Shown: positions 1 through 34,041 of the stretch, one piece after another
Layout of the letters: the number at the start of each line of letters is the position of its first letter
Numbering within the stretch: the first letter of the stretch is position 1
From: Candidatus Saccharimonadota bacterium
Lineage (GTDB): Bacteria; Patescibacteriota; Saccharimonadia; Saccharimonadales; UBA4665
Reading direction: 5' to 3'
Assembly: GCA_027315225.1 (NCBI GenBank)
Contig: DAHUYJ010000010.1
Span: forward strand, 1 to 34,041
Length of the DNA: 34,041 nt
The notes under the pieces: generated by a model
The model's database searches: none
What the model saw: the letters and a program-made list of their open reading frames with translations, nothing else
What the model was told of the DNA's origin: nothing
Position numbers and translations under genes: made by a program

Positions 1-432
1 GTAGCGCTGGACGTCGCCAACCACATAGAGGACGTGGGAATTTTTGGCATCGAAATGTTCCTAGCCGAAGATGGCCACGTGCTAGTTAATGAAATCGCGC
101 CGCGAGTTCATAATTCCGGCCACTATACGATCGAAGCCTGCCAGACTTCGCAGTTTGAACAACACGTCCGGGCCATTACCGGCCTGCCGCTCGGTCCGGC
201 CGATATGAAAGTCCCGGCCGCCGTGATGGTCAACATCCTAGGGGAGCAAAACGGCCCGGCAGACCCGCAAGGTATCGACAAAGCCGAGCAGGAGCCGCAT
301 ACTAAAGTACATCTTTACGGCAAATCGCCAACCAGGATCGACCGCAAGATGGGGCATATAACTTCAACCGGCGACACCGTCGCCGAAGCCCGTTCCCGGG
401 CCGAGGCCGCACGTAAGTTAATTACGATATGA
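1..432 (+). CDS. purK: 5-(carboxyamino)imidazole ribonucleotide synthase, C-terminal part
   Basis: Carboxylates AIR to N5-CAIR using ATP and bicarbonate, in the step before PurE. Only the C-terminal 143 codons are present; the reading frame is open from base 1 and the gene starts outside the window. The visible part holds the end of the ATP-grasp domain, with NEIAPRVHNSGHYT (metal- and ATP-binding strand) and TSQFEQHVRAITGLPLG, followed by the small C-terminal domain with KMGHIT. These are hallmark PurK strings. The stop TGA at 430-432 overlaps the ATG of the next gene (ATGA), so translation is probably coupled. The purK-HAD-purE order places it in a purine operon. Identification is firm; N-terminal completeness cannot be judged. 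Confidence 0.95.
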   Translation, partial: VALDVANHIEDVGIFGIEMFLAEDGHVLVNEIAPRVHNSGHYTIEACQTSQFEQHVRAITGLPLGPADMKVPAAVMVNILGEQNGPADPQGIDKAEQEPHTKVHLYGKSPTRIDRKMGHITSTGDTVAEARSRAEAARKLITI

Positions 433-28555: not shown

Positions 28556-29788
28556 TTATTCGCTTCTCAGTGCTTCGATAGGATCTTTGTACGCCGCCTT
28601 GATGGCCGGTACCGTGCCGAATAAAATACCGATCAGCAGCGAAACGGCGCTGGCCAAAACCACCACTTGCCAGCTTATGGCCGGATGCAGGGAAGAGAAC
28701 GTCCTGAGCATAAAATCAGCAAAGAACGCCAACAGGATGCCGAGTACCCCGCCTATTAAGCTTAAAATGCCCGACTCAATAATAAACTGGCTCATGATCT
28801 GACGGTTGGTAGCGCCAATCGCCTTGCGTATCCCGATTTCGTGCATGCGCTCAGTAACTGACACCAGCATCACGTTCATAATGCCGATGCCGCCCACCAG
28901 AAGCGAAATGGCCGCTACTCCGGCAATCAAGCGTGTCAACAGTTCCAGAATCTGGTCGCTGGCCGTCAGGTCCTGGTTGCCGGATTGTACGCTCAATCCG
29001 CTTTGTCCGCCATGAACCTGGTCGAGAGCGGTCTTCAGCCTGGCTATGACGGCTGAGGCTTTTTCGTGCGCGGCCGGCCTGGCAAGCATTTCGTACGTAG
29101 GAGCCGTATTTTTACTGAGGCTCTCGGCCACCTGGTTGGGAATGAATATAGCATTATTGAAGTTCGCCTGCTGGCTGAGCGGGGTCGTCGTAAATTGGTT
29201 GAAGATGCCCTCCACGACAAACTGCTGCCCATGAAAGGTGAAGCTGCGCCCCAAGGGCACGTCTTCGTTAAACAACGCGTTGCTGGCGTTTTGCCCGAGA
29301 ACGGCAACATTCATATCATAACTATCGGATGAGAAGAAGGAGCCGTACTGCAGGGACTGGTTAAGTAGCCCAGGTAGGTCGCTGGTCGTGCCGACTACGA
29401 AACCGTTACGGTACATGCCGTGGTCACCGCGCACCGCACCGCCTACGATCGTGAGTGGCGCACTGGCGGTTACACCGTTGGTATGGCTGATTGCATTTAT
29501 GTCCTTTATGCCGAGCGGAGTGCTTATACTAAAGCCCGGGATTAAGTCGGGACTATTACTGCCGGCACTATTACCATTAAGAAGCTGGGCCGGCCGCACA
29601 GTAATGAGATTTTGCCCCAGGTGGTGAATCTGGCCGCCAATTTCCTGTTTGATGCCTTCGCCAATGCCGACTACGGTAATGACTGACGCAACACCTATAA
29701 TAATACCGAGCATGGTCCAAAAGCTCCTGATCTTCGCACCGCGCACAGAGTCCCAGCCGGCCCTAAGATGGGCATGAGGCATACTCAC
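28556..29788 (-). CDS. MacB/FtsX-type ABC transporter permease
   Basis: 410 residues. One N-terminal membrane segment (about 24-44, MLGIIIGVASVITVVGIGEG), then a periplasmic-type MacB core domain of about 230 residues, then three C-terminal segments of the FtsX fold (about 290-315, 340-365, 375-400), with MHEIGIRKAIGATN between them, the typical FtsX coupling sequence. The ATG overlaps the stop of the upstream ATPase gene as ATGA, so the two form a transporter of the LolCDE/MacAB mechanotransmission type. No MacA-like adaptor is present. Substrate unknown; peptides, lipoproteins or antimicrobials are candidates. Confidence 0.93.
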   Translation of the reverse strand: MSMPHAHLRAGWDSVRGAKIRSFWTMLGIIIGVASVITVVGIGEGIKQEIGGQIHHLGQNLITVRPAQLLNGNSAGSNSPDLIPGFSISTPLGIKDINAISHTNGVTASAPLTIVGGAVRGDHGMYRNGFVVGTTSDLPGLLNQSLQYGSFFSSDSYDMNVAVLGQNASNALFNEDVPLGRSFTFHGQQFVVEGIFNQFTTTPLSQQANFNNAIFIPNQVAESLSKNTAPTYEMLARPAAHEKASAVIARLKTALDQVHGGQSGLSVQSGNQDLTASDQILELLTRLIAGVAAISLLVGGIGIMNVMLVSVTERMHEIGIRKAIGATNRQIMSQFIIESGILSLIGGVLGILLAFFADFMLRTFSSLHPAISWQVVVLASAVSLLIGILFGTVPAIKAAYKDPIEALRSE

Positions 29789-30666
29789 GAGGCCTTCTTC
29801 CTGCGGCTGACGGATCGCTTTTTGCGGCGTGTGGATTTGTCAGTAGCCTTTTTGCGTTTGGGTGGCGGAGCCTCTTTGTGGGGAAAGGCTTTCATCATGA
29901 CCGAAACACCTTCCAAGTCATCTTCCTCACTGGTAGCAGGAATCGTATACAGCACTTTACGGGCCTTGGGGGCGACTTGTCCTAGCGCAGTCTGCTCATC
30001 ATGGATGATGGTACCGTCGTGCATATATACCACTCTTGTAGCGAAGCGCGTCAGCTCCGGGTTATGGGTAACGAACAGGACAGTGTTTCCTAGCTTATGA
30101 ATATCGGATAGCAGCTCCATAACCAGCCGGGAGCCGGAACTATCCAGGTTGCCGGTTGGTTCATCGGCAATAATAATCTTGGGGTTGTTAACAAGCGCGC
30201 GGGCAATAGCTGCACATTGCGCCTGGCCGCCGCTCAGTTGGCTCGGGAAAAAGTATTCCCGGTTCTGGACGCCAACCCGCTCAAGCATTTGGCTGGCAAG
30301 CTTGGTACGCCGGCTCAGCGACACGCCTTTGTATGCCAGGGGCAGGGCAACGTTCTCCAAGACCGTAAGGCGGGGCAAAAAGTTAAAAGACTGCAGTATA
30401 AAGCCTATGGTGTCGCGCCGGATTTTGGCTGCCTGATCGGTCTTAAGACGAGCGACAGCCTTGTTGTCCAACCGGTAGTCGCCGTGGCTGGGCCGGTCCA
30501 ACAAGCCGATAAGGTTCATAAGCGTGCTCTTGCCGCTGCCGCTCGGTCCCATGACGGCCACGAATTCGCCCTTGGTAATAGTTAAGTCAACCTCGTCGAG
30601 CGCCAAGGTGGTGGCGTCGCCGAAGCCGTACAGCTTGCTGACGTCTTGCAATTCTATGAGAGCCAT
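29785..30666 (-). CDS. MacB/LolD-type ABC transporter ATPase with basic C-terminal tail
   Basis: 293 residues. Walker A GPSGSGKST (40-48), signature LSGGQAQCAAIARAL (the arginine usual in QRVAIARAL is Cys), Walker B IIADEPT followed by GNLDS, and the switch His in FVTHNPE. The core ends near residue 225; beyond it lies a tail of about 65 residues rich in Lys and Arg (PPPKRKKATDKSTRRKK) with no recognised fold, possibly contacting nucleic acid or membrane. A promoter lies upstream, with its -10 ten bases before the ATG. First gene of a two-gene operon with the permease. Confidence 0.93.
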   Translation of the reverse strand: MALIELQDVSKLYGFGDATTLALDEVDLTITKGEFVAVMGPSGSGKSTLMNLIGLLDRPSHGDYRLDNKAVARLKTDQAAKIRRDTIGFILQSFNFLPRLTVLENVALPLAYKGVSLSRRTKLASQMLERVGVQNREYFFPSQLSGGQAQCAAIARALVNNPKIIIADEPTGNLDSSGSRLVMELLSDIHKLGNTVLFVTHNPELTRFATRVVYMHDGTIIHDEQTALGQVAPKARKVLYTIPATSEEDDLEGVSVMMKAFPHKEAPPPKRKKATDKSTRRKKRSVSRRKKAS

Positions 30667-30676
30667 TCTGCTTTTA

Positions 30677-30706
30677 AGTGTAATCCCTTTTTGCCCCTCT
30701 CCGCAA
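30677..30706 (-). promoter_or_regulatory. Promoter of the ABC transporter operon
   Basis: TTGCGG (30706-30701), 18 bases, TACACT (30682-30677), then ten bases to the ATG at 30666. RNA would start about three bases before the ATG, close to leaderless. Confidence 0.45.
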
Positions 30707-30819
30707 GGAGTTTTTGTGGTAATTTTAACCCTTTTATGGTTTCGCTAGTTGAGGCTGGAACGTGCCTTAAATTCGGGTATTTTTGCAGGGGTTAGTATGC
30801 CTTCAGGACGATTTTAAGC

Positions 30820-30825
30820 TATAAT
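30820..30825 (+). promoter_or_regulatory. -10 element of the tRNA-Ser gene
   Basis: Perfect TATAAT thirteen bases before the first tRNA base (30838); RNA would start about six bases upstream of the mature end. The -35 is weak. Confidence 0.5.
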
Positions 30826-30837
30826 TCATGCTGGCCT

Positions 30838-30927
30838 GGAGAGATGCAGGAGTGGTTGAACTGGCACGCCTGGAACGCGTGTATGGCCGCAAGGTCATCC
30901 AGGGTTCGAATCCCTGTCTCTCCGCCA
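30838..30927 (+). tRNA. tRNA-Ser (anticodon GGA), CCA encoded
   Basis: Acceptor GGAGAGA (30838-30844) pairs with TCTCTCC (30917-30923), discriminator G and an encoded CCA (30925-30927). Anticodon arm CACGC-CTGGAAC-GCGTG gives anticodon GGA, reading UCC and UCU. A long variable arm (ATGGCC-GCAA-GGTCAT) marks a class II serine tRNA. T arm CAGGG-TTCGAAT-CCCTG. The next protein gene starts four bases after CCA. Confidence 0.96.
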
Positions 30928-30931
30928 AAAT

Positions 30932-31459
30932 ATGATGAAAAATAGCGAAAATGCATTCACGGCCATAGAGACTCTGCTTGCTGTAACCGTAACCCTGGTA
31001 ATAGCCATAGTGGGGTGGCACGTACTCGGCAGCAAAGAGGATGGCCCGCATCTATCACCGTCAGGGACGCCAGCAACTAACCTGCCAAAAGGCGATGCCA
31101 ATAACACGTATGCGTACCGGGGGACGGTCTTTCCAGATCTGCCCTCAGGCTATAAAACCGTTCACCGCGATCCCAAGGCATCGGAGTCTTTTTATATAAC
31201 CCTATACAGCAAAGACCAGGTACGTACTGAGGTTGAATCAGTTTGCAGAGCCCATGGGTTCATATTCTCAAAATCCACACCCACGAACGGGCAATCTATA
31301 GAGTGCTCGAGCAAGGTTGCAACATGGACATTTTCAATACTATCCGCAAGCAATATCATCGACGAGCCGTGGTATTCAAGTATTGCGCCAATAGATGAAT
31401 CCGCCTTGGCTAAATCGATGCTATTGACAGTCGCTTCACGACAGGCGGTTGTTAACTAG
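30932..31459 (+). CDS. Type IV pilin-like protein
   Basis: 175 residues with a short basic leader and a prepilin-like segment: [18 protein letters not shown] (8-25), with cleavage predicted between Ala8 and Phe9, Glu13 at the +5 position, and a hydrophobic stretch to about residue 32. The -1 residue is Ala where Gly is usual, which some peptidases accept. The exported part (about 35-175) has two cysteines (VESVCRAHG and SIECSSK) that may form a disulfide. ATG occurs twice in tandem (30932, 30935). There is no SD or own promoter; the gene lies four bases after a tRNA-Ser gene and is probably co-transcribed with it. Confidence 0.75.
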
Positions 31460-31508
31460 CACCTCTGTCTGGCCATACGTTTGCAATCAAGCCTTCTCTA
31501 TCAAGAAG

Positions 31509-31517
31509 TGTTACAAT
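31509..31517 (+). promoter_or_regulatory. Extended -10 of the small membrane protein / Clp-like operon
   Basis: TGTTACAAT: TACAAT (31512-31517) with upstream TG, then seven bases to ATG 31525. The earlier ATG at 31519 lies between the -10 and the expected RNA start, so it probably is not transcribed. Confidence 0.55.
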
Positions 31518-31524
31518 TATGGCT

Positions 31525-31887
31525 ATGCTTATCCTGTCGTTCTTCTCGTGGTGGTATGGCCGCGGCTGGGGGTTGGTGTTCGATAGCTTAGGCCCGCGGT
31601 TAGGCGGGGTTCTCGACCTGTTTTCGGTCGGTCAGTTATTCAGGACGCTGTTCGAGCCGTGGCGCCGCATTATAACCTATCCAGGCACCAGCCTTGACGC
31701 CCGAATGCGGGCCTTGGTTGATAACGCGTTCAGCCGTGCAATCGGCTTTGTGGTTCGAGTGATAGTACTGATCGCCGCGGTAGTGTTCCTGGCCGTAGTG
31801 GCGGTCTTGAGTATCGTAGAGTTGGTCATCTGGCCGCTGCTGCCACTCGCCGTACCCGGATGCCTTATCGCGGGGTTGATTATATGA
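31525..31887 (+). CDS. Unknown small membrane protein upstream of the Clp-like ATPase
   Basis: 120 residues from ATG 31525 (122 from ATG 31519). I do not recognise a named family. A hydrophobic, aromatic N-terminus (MLILSFFSWWYGRGWGLVF) is followed by an amphipathic segment (LFRTLFEPWRRI) and a strong hydrophobic region from about residue 68 to the end, enough for two helices. ATG 31525 is preferred because it lies seven bases after an extended -10, giving a leaderless mRNA. The stop overlaps the next start as ATGA, so it is translated together with a membrane-anchored AAA+ protein and may be its partner. Confidence 0.75.
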   Translation: MLILSFFSWWYGRGWGLVFDSLGPRLGGVLDLFSVGQLFRTLFEPWRRIITYPGTSLDARMRALVDNAFSRAIGFVVRVIVLIAAVVFLAVVAVLSIVELVIWPLLPLAVPGCLIAGLII

Positions 31888-34041
31888 ACGAAGTAATCGC
31901 CCTGCGCACTTCCCGGGCGGCCCAAGCCAGGCTTGGCAAAGCTGTCGGCCTGACAGGCTACCGCATACTATTTGTTCTTGGCTGCCTGTTTGCTGCGGCA
32001 GCGATAGCATCGGGTTTTTTGGCCGGGGTACGTTATGCTCTCCTGTTGGCAACGCCCGCACTACTGTGTTTTATTCCGGCGATCTGGTGGAAGCGACAGC
32101 TATCCATCTTGCCAGCAGAAGGTAATGACCTGGGCAGCCGGTTATCCGGAGACGTTTTGGCACGGCTCAAGCCTGGCCAGGAGCAACAACCACAAGCCGT
32201 GTGGGCAGCGCTTAGCGACCATTGGCAGGCCGGTTTCTTTTTGAATCACTTATTAATCAGCCCGGAGGCAGTGGCAGCTACTCTCGTTAGCGATTCGGTA
32301 CAGACGGAAGCGGCACTACAAAAAGCCGTGCAACTGGCCGATGAAAACCAAAGCCCGACTGTCGAGCTTGGTTTCATAGTAGCCGGACTAATGATGACGG
32401 CTCCCGGCATGCAACAATTGCTCACACAGCGTAAAGCCCACCAGGGTGACGTTGAAGCGATTGCCAACTGGCTGGGACGTAATTTGGCGCAGATGCGTGC
32501 TCCAAGACAAAGCTTTGGCGGCGTCGGCAGGGACTGGGCCTTCGGCTTCACGCCGCTTCTGGACCGCTTCGGCCGCAACATTAGCCTGGGGATTGCCAAG
32601 CACGGTGCGCACTTCGGATGGCTGACCAAGTCCGAAGGGGTCAAGGCTATAGAGGCAGCTTTCAGCAACCATGCCAGTGCCGTGGCGCTTATCGGCCCGC
32701 CCGGAATCGGCAAAAGCAGTAGCGTATATGCTCTCGCGCAACGGCTTATCGAAGGCAACACCAGCGCGGTCCTGGCTTATCATCAAATCGTCTCCCTCAA
32801 CGCTACGGATATTACCTCGAACGCCCGGCAGGTCAGGGACCTGGAGCAAATCATGCTTAGCCTCACTAACGAAGCCGCCCGAGCCGGGCATATTATACTG
32901 TTCTTCGATGATGCCCAGTTATTCTTCAATGACGGGCCGGGAACGTTTGATGCCACGCAAATCCTGCTTTCTATCATCCAAGCCCGTTCCGCGCCCTTAA
33001 TTCTGGCTATGTCACCGGAGGATTATCAACGTTTGCGCGCACGCAACCAAAGTCTGGCCAGTCTACTGACACCGGTAGTCTTGCAGGAGCTACCCGAAGC
33101 GGGAGTTATCCATGTGCTCGAGGACACTGCCCTGGGCCTGGAGAGCCGCAACCAGATACTCATAGCCTATGAGGCATTGCATGAAGCCTACCGCCTGAGC
33201 GGCCGCTACGACCAGGATGAAGCCTACCCGGGACGGGCCATCAAACTCCTCGAACAAGCCATGGCCCATAGCGAGCATTCTATAGTAAGCGCCACCAGCG
33301 TCCAGCAGGCAATTGAACAAACCCATGGGGTCAAGGTCAGTTCTGCAGCCCCGGCCGAAACCGACGCGCTTCTGCACCTTGAGGACAATATCCACAAGCG
33401 TATGATCAATCAAAAACACGCGGTCGGCGTAGTTGCCAACGCGCTGCGGCGGGCACGGGCCGGAGTGGCTAACCCCAAACGACCGATTGGCAGCTTTCTG
33501 TTCCTTGGCCCTACCGGTGTAGGCAAGACAGAATTGGCCAAGTCAATTGCCGCAACGTACTTTGGAGATGAGAACAACATGGTGCGACTGGACATGAGCG
33601 AATACCAACAGACCGACGACACCAGCCGGCTGCTATCCAACGGCCAGGAGGAGAACAAGAGCCTGATTATGGCCGTCCGCGAAAGGCCTTTCAGCGTCGT
33701 CCTACTTGATGAGATTGAAAAAGCGCACCCTAACATTCTCAATCTTTTACTGCAGCTTCTGGATGAAGGGCAACTCACCGATACGGCTGGTAAGGCAGTA
33801 TCTTTAAAGGATTGCATCATAATCGCTACCAGCAATGCCGGCGCCCAGACTATCCGGGAGCGGATAGGCCGAGGGGAAACCTTGGATAGCTTTGCCGGAC
33901 AATTCACCGACGAGCTCATCAACAGCGGCCAGTTTAAGCCCGAGCTGCTCAACCGGTTCGACGAGATGGTCCTCTTCCGGCCGCTTCAGCCAGAGGAACT
34001 GGCTCAAGTCGTCGGGCTGATGCTTAGCGGGATTAACCGGA
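31884..34041 (+). CDS. Membrane-anchored ClpB/ClpC-like double AAA+ ATPase, partial at the window end
   Basis: 719 codons are visible and the frame is open at the right edge. Residues about 26-70 form two hydrophobic segments; no canonical Clp N-domain is seen before them, so the protein is tethered to the membrane. A Clp_N-like helical repeat may follow (about 105-210). AAA domain 1 has Walker A GPPGIGKS (271-278) and a Walker B-like HIILFFDDAQ, where the second acidic residue is Asp instead of Glu. AAA domain 2 has GPTGVGKT (542-549), LLDEIEKAH (Asp609, Glu610) and FKPELLNRFDEMV. Likely an unfoldase working with a protease or disaggregase at the membrane. Starts with ATGA overlap on the small membrane gene. 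Confidence 0.92.
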   Translation, partial: MNEVIALRTSRAAQARLGKAVGLTGYRILFVLGCLFAAAAIASGFLAGVRYALLLATPALLCFIPAIWWKRQLSILPAEGNDLGSRLSGDVLARLKPGQEQQPQAVWAALSDHWQAGFFLNHLLISPEAVAATLVSDSVQTEAALQKAVQLADENQSPTVELGFIVAGLMMTAPGMQQLLTQRKAHQGDVEAIANWLGRNLAQMRAPRQSFGGVGRDWAFGFTPLLDRFGRNISLGIAKHGAHFGWLTKSEGVKAIEAAFSNHASAVALIGPPGIGKSSSVYALAQRLIEGNTSAVLAYHQIVSLNATDITSNARQVRDLEQIMLSLTNEAARAGHIILFFDDAQLFFNDGPGTFDATQILLSIIQARSAPLILAMSPEDYQRLRARNQSLASLLTPVVLQELPEAGVIHVLEDTALGLESRNQILIAYEALHEAYRLSGRYDQDEAYPGRAIKLLEQAMAHSEHSIVSATSVQQAIEQTHGVKVSSAAPAETDALLHLEDNIHKRMINQKHAVGVVANALRRARAGVANPKRPIGSFLFLGPTGVGKTELAKSIAATYFGDENNMVRLDMSEYQQTDDTSRLLSNGQEENKSLIMAVRERPFSVVLLDEIEKAHPNILNLLLQLLDEGQLTDTAGKAVSLKDCIIIATSNAGAQTIRERIGRGETLDSFAGQFTDELINSGQFKPELLNRFDEMVLFRPLQPEELAQVVGLMLSGINR

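Follow-up and report, generated by a model that had tools for sequence, protein, structure and literature searches.

A pilin-like gene four bases behind tRNA-Ser(GGA) in a Candidatus Saccharimonadota genome: a probable tRNA-mRNA co-transcription unit

How is a protein gene expressed when its first ATG stands four bases behind the encoded CCA of a tRNA? The question is raised by a pilin-like open reading frame (ORF) that follows tRNA-Ser(GGA) in a genome of Candidatus Saccharimonadota, within a stretch of 34,041 nucleotides (contig DAHUYJ010000010.1) that is referred to here as the window. A first-pass annotation of the same DNA had proposed that the gene must be read through from the tRNA promoter, that removal of the tRNA would release an almost leaderless mRNA, and that tRNA processing might thereby act as a gate for the pilin-like protein. 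We consider it probable that tRNA-Ser(GGA) and the pilin-like gene form a co-transcription unit, in which the gene would be reached by read-through, released by a cut and translated as a leaderless mRNA.

The junction and its reading frame

The features of the locus are collected in Table 1. The tRNA ends in ...CTCCGCCA, the last base being 30927 as read directly from the letters, and the pilin-like ORF opens with an ATG at 30932-30934 that is followed in frame by a second ATG at 30935-30937. The coordinates given in the first-pass annotation (CCA end at 30927, ATG at 30932 and a gap of four bases) were thus all right, as judged from the sequence and from ARAGORN. When Rfam was run at gathering thresholds over the whole window no match was returned, tRNA-Ser(GGA) included. 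RNA folding of the tRNA together with the gap gave an ordinary result in comparison with shuffled sequences, and the minimum-energy form was no clean cloverleaf. The start of the pilin mRNA, folded alone, was unpaired in the RNA model.

Table 1. Features in and around the tRNA-Ser(GGA) junction; positions refer to the window.
Feature	Position	Strand	Basis or remark
Divergent ABC-transporter ATPase upstream of tRNA-Ser	29785..30666	-	PF00005, 110.2 bits
TATAAT, presumed -10 of the tRNA-Ser promoter	30820..30825	+	12 nt before the tRNA; RNA start expected near 30832
tRNA-Ser(GGA), CCA encoded	30838..30927	+	ARAGORN; RF00005, 52.1 bits
AAAT, the entire gap from CCA to the first ATG, putative release cut for both RNAs	30928..30931	+	Sequence; cut site predicted
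Pilin-like ORF, 175 aa (174 aa from ATG 30935)	30932..31459	+	ORF translation; N_methyl below cut-off; other pilin-like ORFs matched in the N-terminal part only
TACAAT, leaderless-promoter -10 belonging to the next gene	31512..31517	+	7 nt before ATG 31525
Next gene, "WWYG" membrane protein, function not assigned	31519..31887	+	Found in 32 of 60 genomes; synteny with tRNA-Ser in relatives

Type IV prepilin signals consist of a short n-region, a G or A before F, an E at +5 and a hydrophobic helix, and inspection of the translation by eye found this layout at the N-terminus of the ORF. The N_methyl family (PF07963) scored 13.4 bits on residues 4-27, below its cut-off of 21.2, and NCBIfam gave no match to the ORF. 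An AlphaFold model from the single sequence predicted a helix at residues 5-33, with low confidence elsewhere (mean pLDDT 51.1). Among 93 genomes of the family only the N-terminal part found partners, weakly and in nine genomes including its own, as is expected of pilin-like proteins with fast-changing heads; apart from these matches the ORF is a singleton, and no wider homologues were present in the plasmids or genome_contigs databases. A prepilin peptidase is encoded in the same genome (PF01478, 38.1 bits, cut-off 26.5). The label "pilin-like" is fair, with membership of the type IV pilins only putative. At -0.03 the ORF has a neutral codon score, where the next gene scores 0.13 and many others 0.1-0.3, so that expression of the ORF itself is only presumed.

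Start signals and leaderless translation

No plus-strand gene upstream feeds tRNA-Ser. TATAAT at 30820-30825 is the only exact copy of this hexamer between 30667 and 30934, albeit with no good -35 partner (the best has three mismatches). A scan for consensus promoters from 30600 to 31950 found no plus-strand site in or near tRNA-Ser, and the same scan listed no terminator between the tRNA and the pilin-like ORF. A promoter belonging to the pilin-like gene at leaderless spacing was rejected, because no -10-like hexamer, nor any TANNNT, is present 4-10 nt before either ATG. CAAAAT and TATGAT overlap the start codon, so that RNA synthesis directed by them would start too late. The first-pass annotation was borne out in that the gap of 4 nt holds neither a promoter nor a Shine-Dalgarno sequence (SD), and also in that the scan found no usable -10 inside the tRNA at the right distance. 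It had further named a downstream start codon with an SD of its own as an outcome that would speak against its reading; this was rejected, since the next in-frame start codons lie past the prepilin signal.

What remains inside the tRNA gene as a weak -10 candidate is a single hexamer, TCGAAT at 30906 in the T-arm, which departs from the consensus at two positions and lies 20 nt before the ATG. If it served as a weak promoter, the pilin-like gene would have a short leader and would not depend on tRNA processing. Promoters that overlap tRNA ends do occur in relatives, such as G003, where the next gene has its TACAAT starting three bases after CCA. However, the consensus scan reported nothing at TCGAAT, the best -35 partner has three mismatches, the hexamer falls in generally conserved T-loop sequence whose letters are common to most tRNAs, and its position is off the 6-7 nt leaderless spacing of the lineage. 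We regard a promoter of this kind as quite unlikely.

Since the gap leaves no room for a promoter or an SD, the pilin-like gene likely depends on read-through from the tRNA-Ser promoter. The earlier wording, that the gene must be read through, was correct as to the missing promoter and SD, but it turned a strong deduction into the equivalent of a measurement.

Leaderless promoters, with the -10 about 6-7 nt before the ATG, are frequent in this genome. Upstream of 89 ORFs (at least 150 aa, ATG start, codon score above 0.05) there are 22 occurrences of TANNNT beginning at -14 to -11, where the background from -40 to -15 in the same tabulation would predict about 7, and the stricter TA[ACT]A[AT]T occurs there 12 times against about 1.5 expected. 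The gene behind the pilin-like ORF follows this habit across genera: of 20 aligned upstream regions of WWYG orthologues, 19 carry TACAAT, usually at a distance of 6-7 nt from the ATG. The alignment used 20 of 30 loci; eight were omitted as their WWYG motif was not parsed (L086, L087, L088, L091, L093, L099, L100 and L103), and two more were set aside by choice, namely L095, which also looks leaderless, and L102, which lacks a -10 of this kind. As leaderless starts are normal in the lineage, a product beginning with AAAUAUG is plausible as an mRNA. The uncut RNA, on the other hand, would probably serve poorly as a message, since its AUG is only four bases from the folded acceptor stem.

CCA was encoded in all 41 tRNAs examined in this genome, and the genes behind them usually leave space for a full promoter. 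When co-directional ORFs starting with ATG within 70 nt of a tRNA were counted (at least 90 aa, codon score of at least -0.2; n = 15), 13 had a gap of at least 32 nt, and eight of these 13 had a -10 at leaderless spacing (L039, one of the 13, is probably spurious). The two exceptions, neither with a -10, are the pilin-like ORF with its gap of 4 and a 179-aa ORF resembling a P-loop kinase, which lies 10 nt behind tRNA-Val(TAC) in the arrangement tRNA-Leu(GAG)-tRNA-Val(TAC)-ORF (L021, G000:C43). The tRNA-Val/kinase junction was found in none of 11 relatives fetched (12 loci scanned for tRNAs); in one relative both tRNAs lie beside the kinase gene on the opposite strand.

A second pilin-like ORF was observed in the same genome (L023, G000:C4:14876-17949; MRHNNSGFAILEGIII...). 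It lies 47 nt behind the tRNA-Gly of a tRNA-Thr(CGT)-tRNA-Gly(CCC) pair, and it has a good leaderless promoter, TTGACT-17-TATTAT-6-ATG.

Release of the mRNA from the tRNA

Release of the message would call for a nuclease acting behind CCA, and RNase Z was not recognised in this genome: TIGR02651 matched only the RNase J protein (22.3 bits), and PF12706 matched that protein together with one sub-threshold partial match. With the genome at 97.2% completeness, a missed gene is possible. TIGR02651 was above its cut-off in none of 30 genomes of the group, as opposed to nine of 14 control genomes, and the group may be without a standard RNase Z. RNase J (TIGR00649, 470.5 bits, cut-off 400) and RNase Y (598.7 bits) are both present, a PNPase-like ORF adjoins the RNase J gene, and RNase Y was found in 21 of 21 genomes searched. 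The first-pass annotation had it that removal of the tRNA at its 3' end frees an mRNA beginning AAATATG. A cut right after CCA would indeed give a near-leaderless AAAUAUG, but such a simple removal is uncertain because no RNase Z was recognised.

Since trimming by exonucleases alone would destroy the mRNA, its release would require an endonuclease to cut in the AU-rich gap, and RNase Y is a candidate for this. According to the excerpts of PMC3848588, Propionibacterium acnes has no obvious tRNase Z, cuts its CCA-encoding tRNAs a few nucleotides downstream and commonly makes leaderless mRNAs. Mycobacterial translation favours an AUG at +1 over one at +2 to +5 (excerpts of PMC4633059), so that a leader of 4 nt may be weak and the exact place of the cut would matter.

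The sequence of events that best accommodates these findings would be as follows. RNA polymerase would start near 30832, directed by TATAAT at 30820, make tRNA-Ser and, meeting no terminator behind the tRNA, continue into the pilin-like gene. An endonuclease, possibly RNase Y, would cut within the AU-rich AAAAUAUG, a few bases past CCA, and this would free both a tRNA precursor and a pilin mRNA with a leader of 0-4 nt (up to 7 nt to the second AUG). The freed mRNA would then be translated in leaderless style, as many genes of the lineage appear to be. Given read-through, we find release as a near-leaderless mRNA plausible, somewhat more so than its failure.

Conservation of the junction and comparison with known systems

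In relatives the locus forms a block of a divergent ABC ATPase, tRNA-Ser(GGA), the gene for the small WWYG membrane protein and a gene that we take to be that of a large ATPase. The WWYG protein had no significant match in Pfam or NCBIfam, and the genome_contigs search returned one relative of its gene. Its gene lies behind tRNA-Ser on the same strand in G003, G005, G008, G009, G010, G014, G025, G029 and G058, and these syntenic flanks indicate that the contig is sound. The slot between the two is variable: it contains nothing much in G003, G008, G010 and G058, an opposite-strand ORF in G009 and G014, and other ORFs in G005, G025 and perhaps G029. The pilin-like gene would accordingly be a lineage-specific tenant of this slot, in a genus that holds one genome only. 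The tRNA-Ser/pilin junction was absent from every relative examined, and the conservation that the first-pass annotation had proposed to look for was not found. The arrangement probably arose when a pilin-like gene was inserted in the slot behind tRNA-Ser, and this would give the gene steady, growth-linked expression.

Two observations concern the tRNA ends at this locus in relatives. In G015 (C37/C49; L127 and L128) a copy of 18 bp of the tRNA-Ser 3' end precedes the WWYG gene, which is on another contig, and tRNA-Ser itself is followed at the contig end by a short pilin-like start (MKNNERLETFAGLSLAALALT); the layout looks like that of an element inserted at a tRNA, with an att-like repeat. 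In G009 a 411-aa ORF (L116:1908-3143, plus strand) ends inside tRNA-Ser (L116:3111-3200, minus strand), with an overlap of about 33 bases. In the window itself, an integration at the tRNA that left an att-like copy beyond the pilin-like ORF was considered and rejected: there was no significant copy of the tRNA 3' end in 31457-31518, where 61 of 1000 shuffles scored as well.

As an alternative, the ORF might be a recent insertion or a decaying copy that is hardly expressed. Its position behind the tRNA would then only reflect a changeable slot in a compact genome and would have no bearing on expression. Its singleton status in 93 family genomes apart from N-terminal matches and its neutral codon score agree with this, and so do slot contents that differ by genus and the tRNA-Val/kinase junction, which is likewise unconserved. 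On the other hand, 175 codons have stayed open, the prepilin-like N-terminus with its helix at residues 5-33 is intact, and a prepilin peptidase is at hand in the genome, and we therefore judge a decaying copy to be unlikely.

Tight junctions in general were surveyed in 30 genomes with the pattern T-arm...CCA-N(0-7)-ATG, every match being read; for this genome the tRNA loci were used. The search gave 149 junction rows, of which six were dropped for want of an ARAGORN tRNA. Nine of the remaining 143 rows, which span CCA-N(-1..7)-ATG, opened an ORF of at least 100 aa, corresponding to eight junctions in seven genomes, as the pilin junction with its two ATGs counts as two rows. On these numbers, and on the wide gaps behind most other tRNAs of this genome, the pilin junction is more than a chance ATG. 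Five junctions in four of the 30 genomes were clear, this one included: the pilin-like gene, VIT1 and dCMP deaminase (G015), an alpha/beta-hydrolase-like gene (G014) and an unnamed ORF (G012). L235, the hydrolase-like gene, falls short of its Pfam cut-off, and L207 has no match in Pfam and extends past the end of its contig. A ComEC-like gene in G045 (L184) and a HIT gene in G006 (L221) are doubtful, because a later start is possible for them. The case in G011 (L210) was rejected as a tight junction, since it has its own TACAAT before a later ATG. Tight tRNA-ATG junctions are thus rare, recurrent and sporadic, they are not known to be conserved, and the genes at them are unrelated and have nothing in common.

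With regard to the proposed gate, these results leave little. If the rate of tRNA-Ser 3' processing set the synthesis of the pilin-like protein, and tied it to translation capacity or host contact, the anatomy would permit it, and initiation should be hampered as long as the acceptor stem stays attached 4 nt from the AUG. However, the junction is not conserved in relatives, the pilin-like gene is a singleton, and the other tight junctions carry unrelated genes that share no theme. The claim that tRNA processing gates the pilin-like protein is for these reasons unsupported, beyond a coupling of the gene to tRNA synthesis, and we hold a true gate to be very improbable.

A literature search that covered few subscription journals and extended to tRNA-mRNA co-transcripts found, in the titles, opening abstract lines and excerpts of the papers returned, no description of such a tRNA-punctuation/leaderless-mRNA arrangement in bacteria, nor did it return a paper that deals with leaderless transcription in Saccharibacteria or Patescibacteria. 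As a broader idea, which we put forward tentatively and think rather doubtful, a lineage with routine leaderless translation might have a bacterial counterpart of tRNA punctuation. Genes up to about ten bases behind CCA would then need neither promoter nor leader, ordinary endonucleolytic tRNA trimming would make near-leaderless mRNAs with a 5'-monophosphate, and the pilin-like gene would be one of several recruited in this way, its output tied to tRNA synthesis. Should the RNA follow what the anatomy suggests, trimming of the tRNA would also serve to form the 5' end of a bacterial mRNA, with neither a recognised RNase Z nor a ribosome-binding site. That would be a simple, testable link between leaderless translation, genome compaction and the way in which promoterless genes are recruited, and it concerns a group in which transcription starts have received little study in the literature covered.

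Among known systems, tRNA punctuation in animal mitochondria is similar in that a tRNA abuts a reading frame and its excision leaves an almost leaderless 5' end on the mRNA. In mitochondria, however, the organisation is genome-wide, with RNase P and RNase Z at work on either side, whereas here there is a single 5' junction with an encoded CCA, RNase Z was not recognised, and only two of the 15 ORFs that follow a tRNA on its own strand within 70 nt are this tight. Like bacterial tRNA-mRNA units, the locus has a protein gene directly behind a tRNA on the same strand and with no promoter of its own. The E. coli operon thrU-tyrU-glyT-thrT-tufB, in which a protein gene is read through from a tRNA promoter, resembles it in the predicted read-through and differs in having longer spacers with an SD, as opposed to 4 nt and no SD. 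Propionibacterium acnes is alike in its lack of an obvious tRNase Z, its cuts behind an encoded CCA and its common leaderless mRNAs, but an mRNA released by a tRNA cut is not described in those excerpts (PMC3848588). An orphan pilin at T4P locus four of Nanosynbacter lyticus TM7x, probably of the same phylum, is comparable as a lone pilin gene apart from the assembly genes, although the excerpts of that report describe no tRNA linkage (PMC12206443). Taken together, the arrangement is probably one form of tRNA-mRNA co-transcription, with a likeness to tRNA punctuation in mitochondria.
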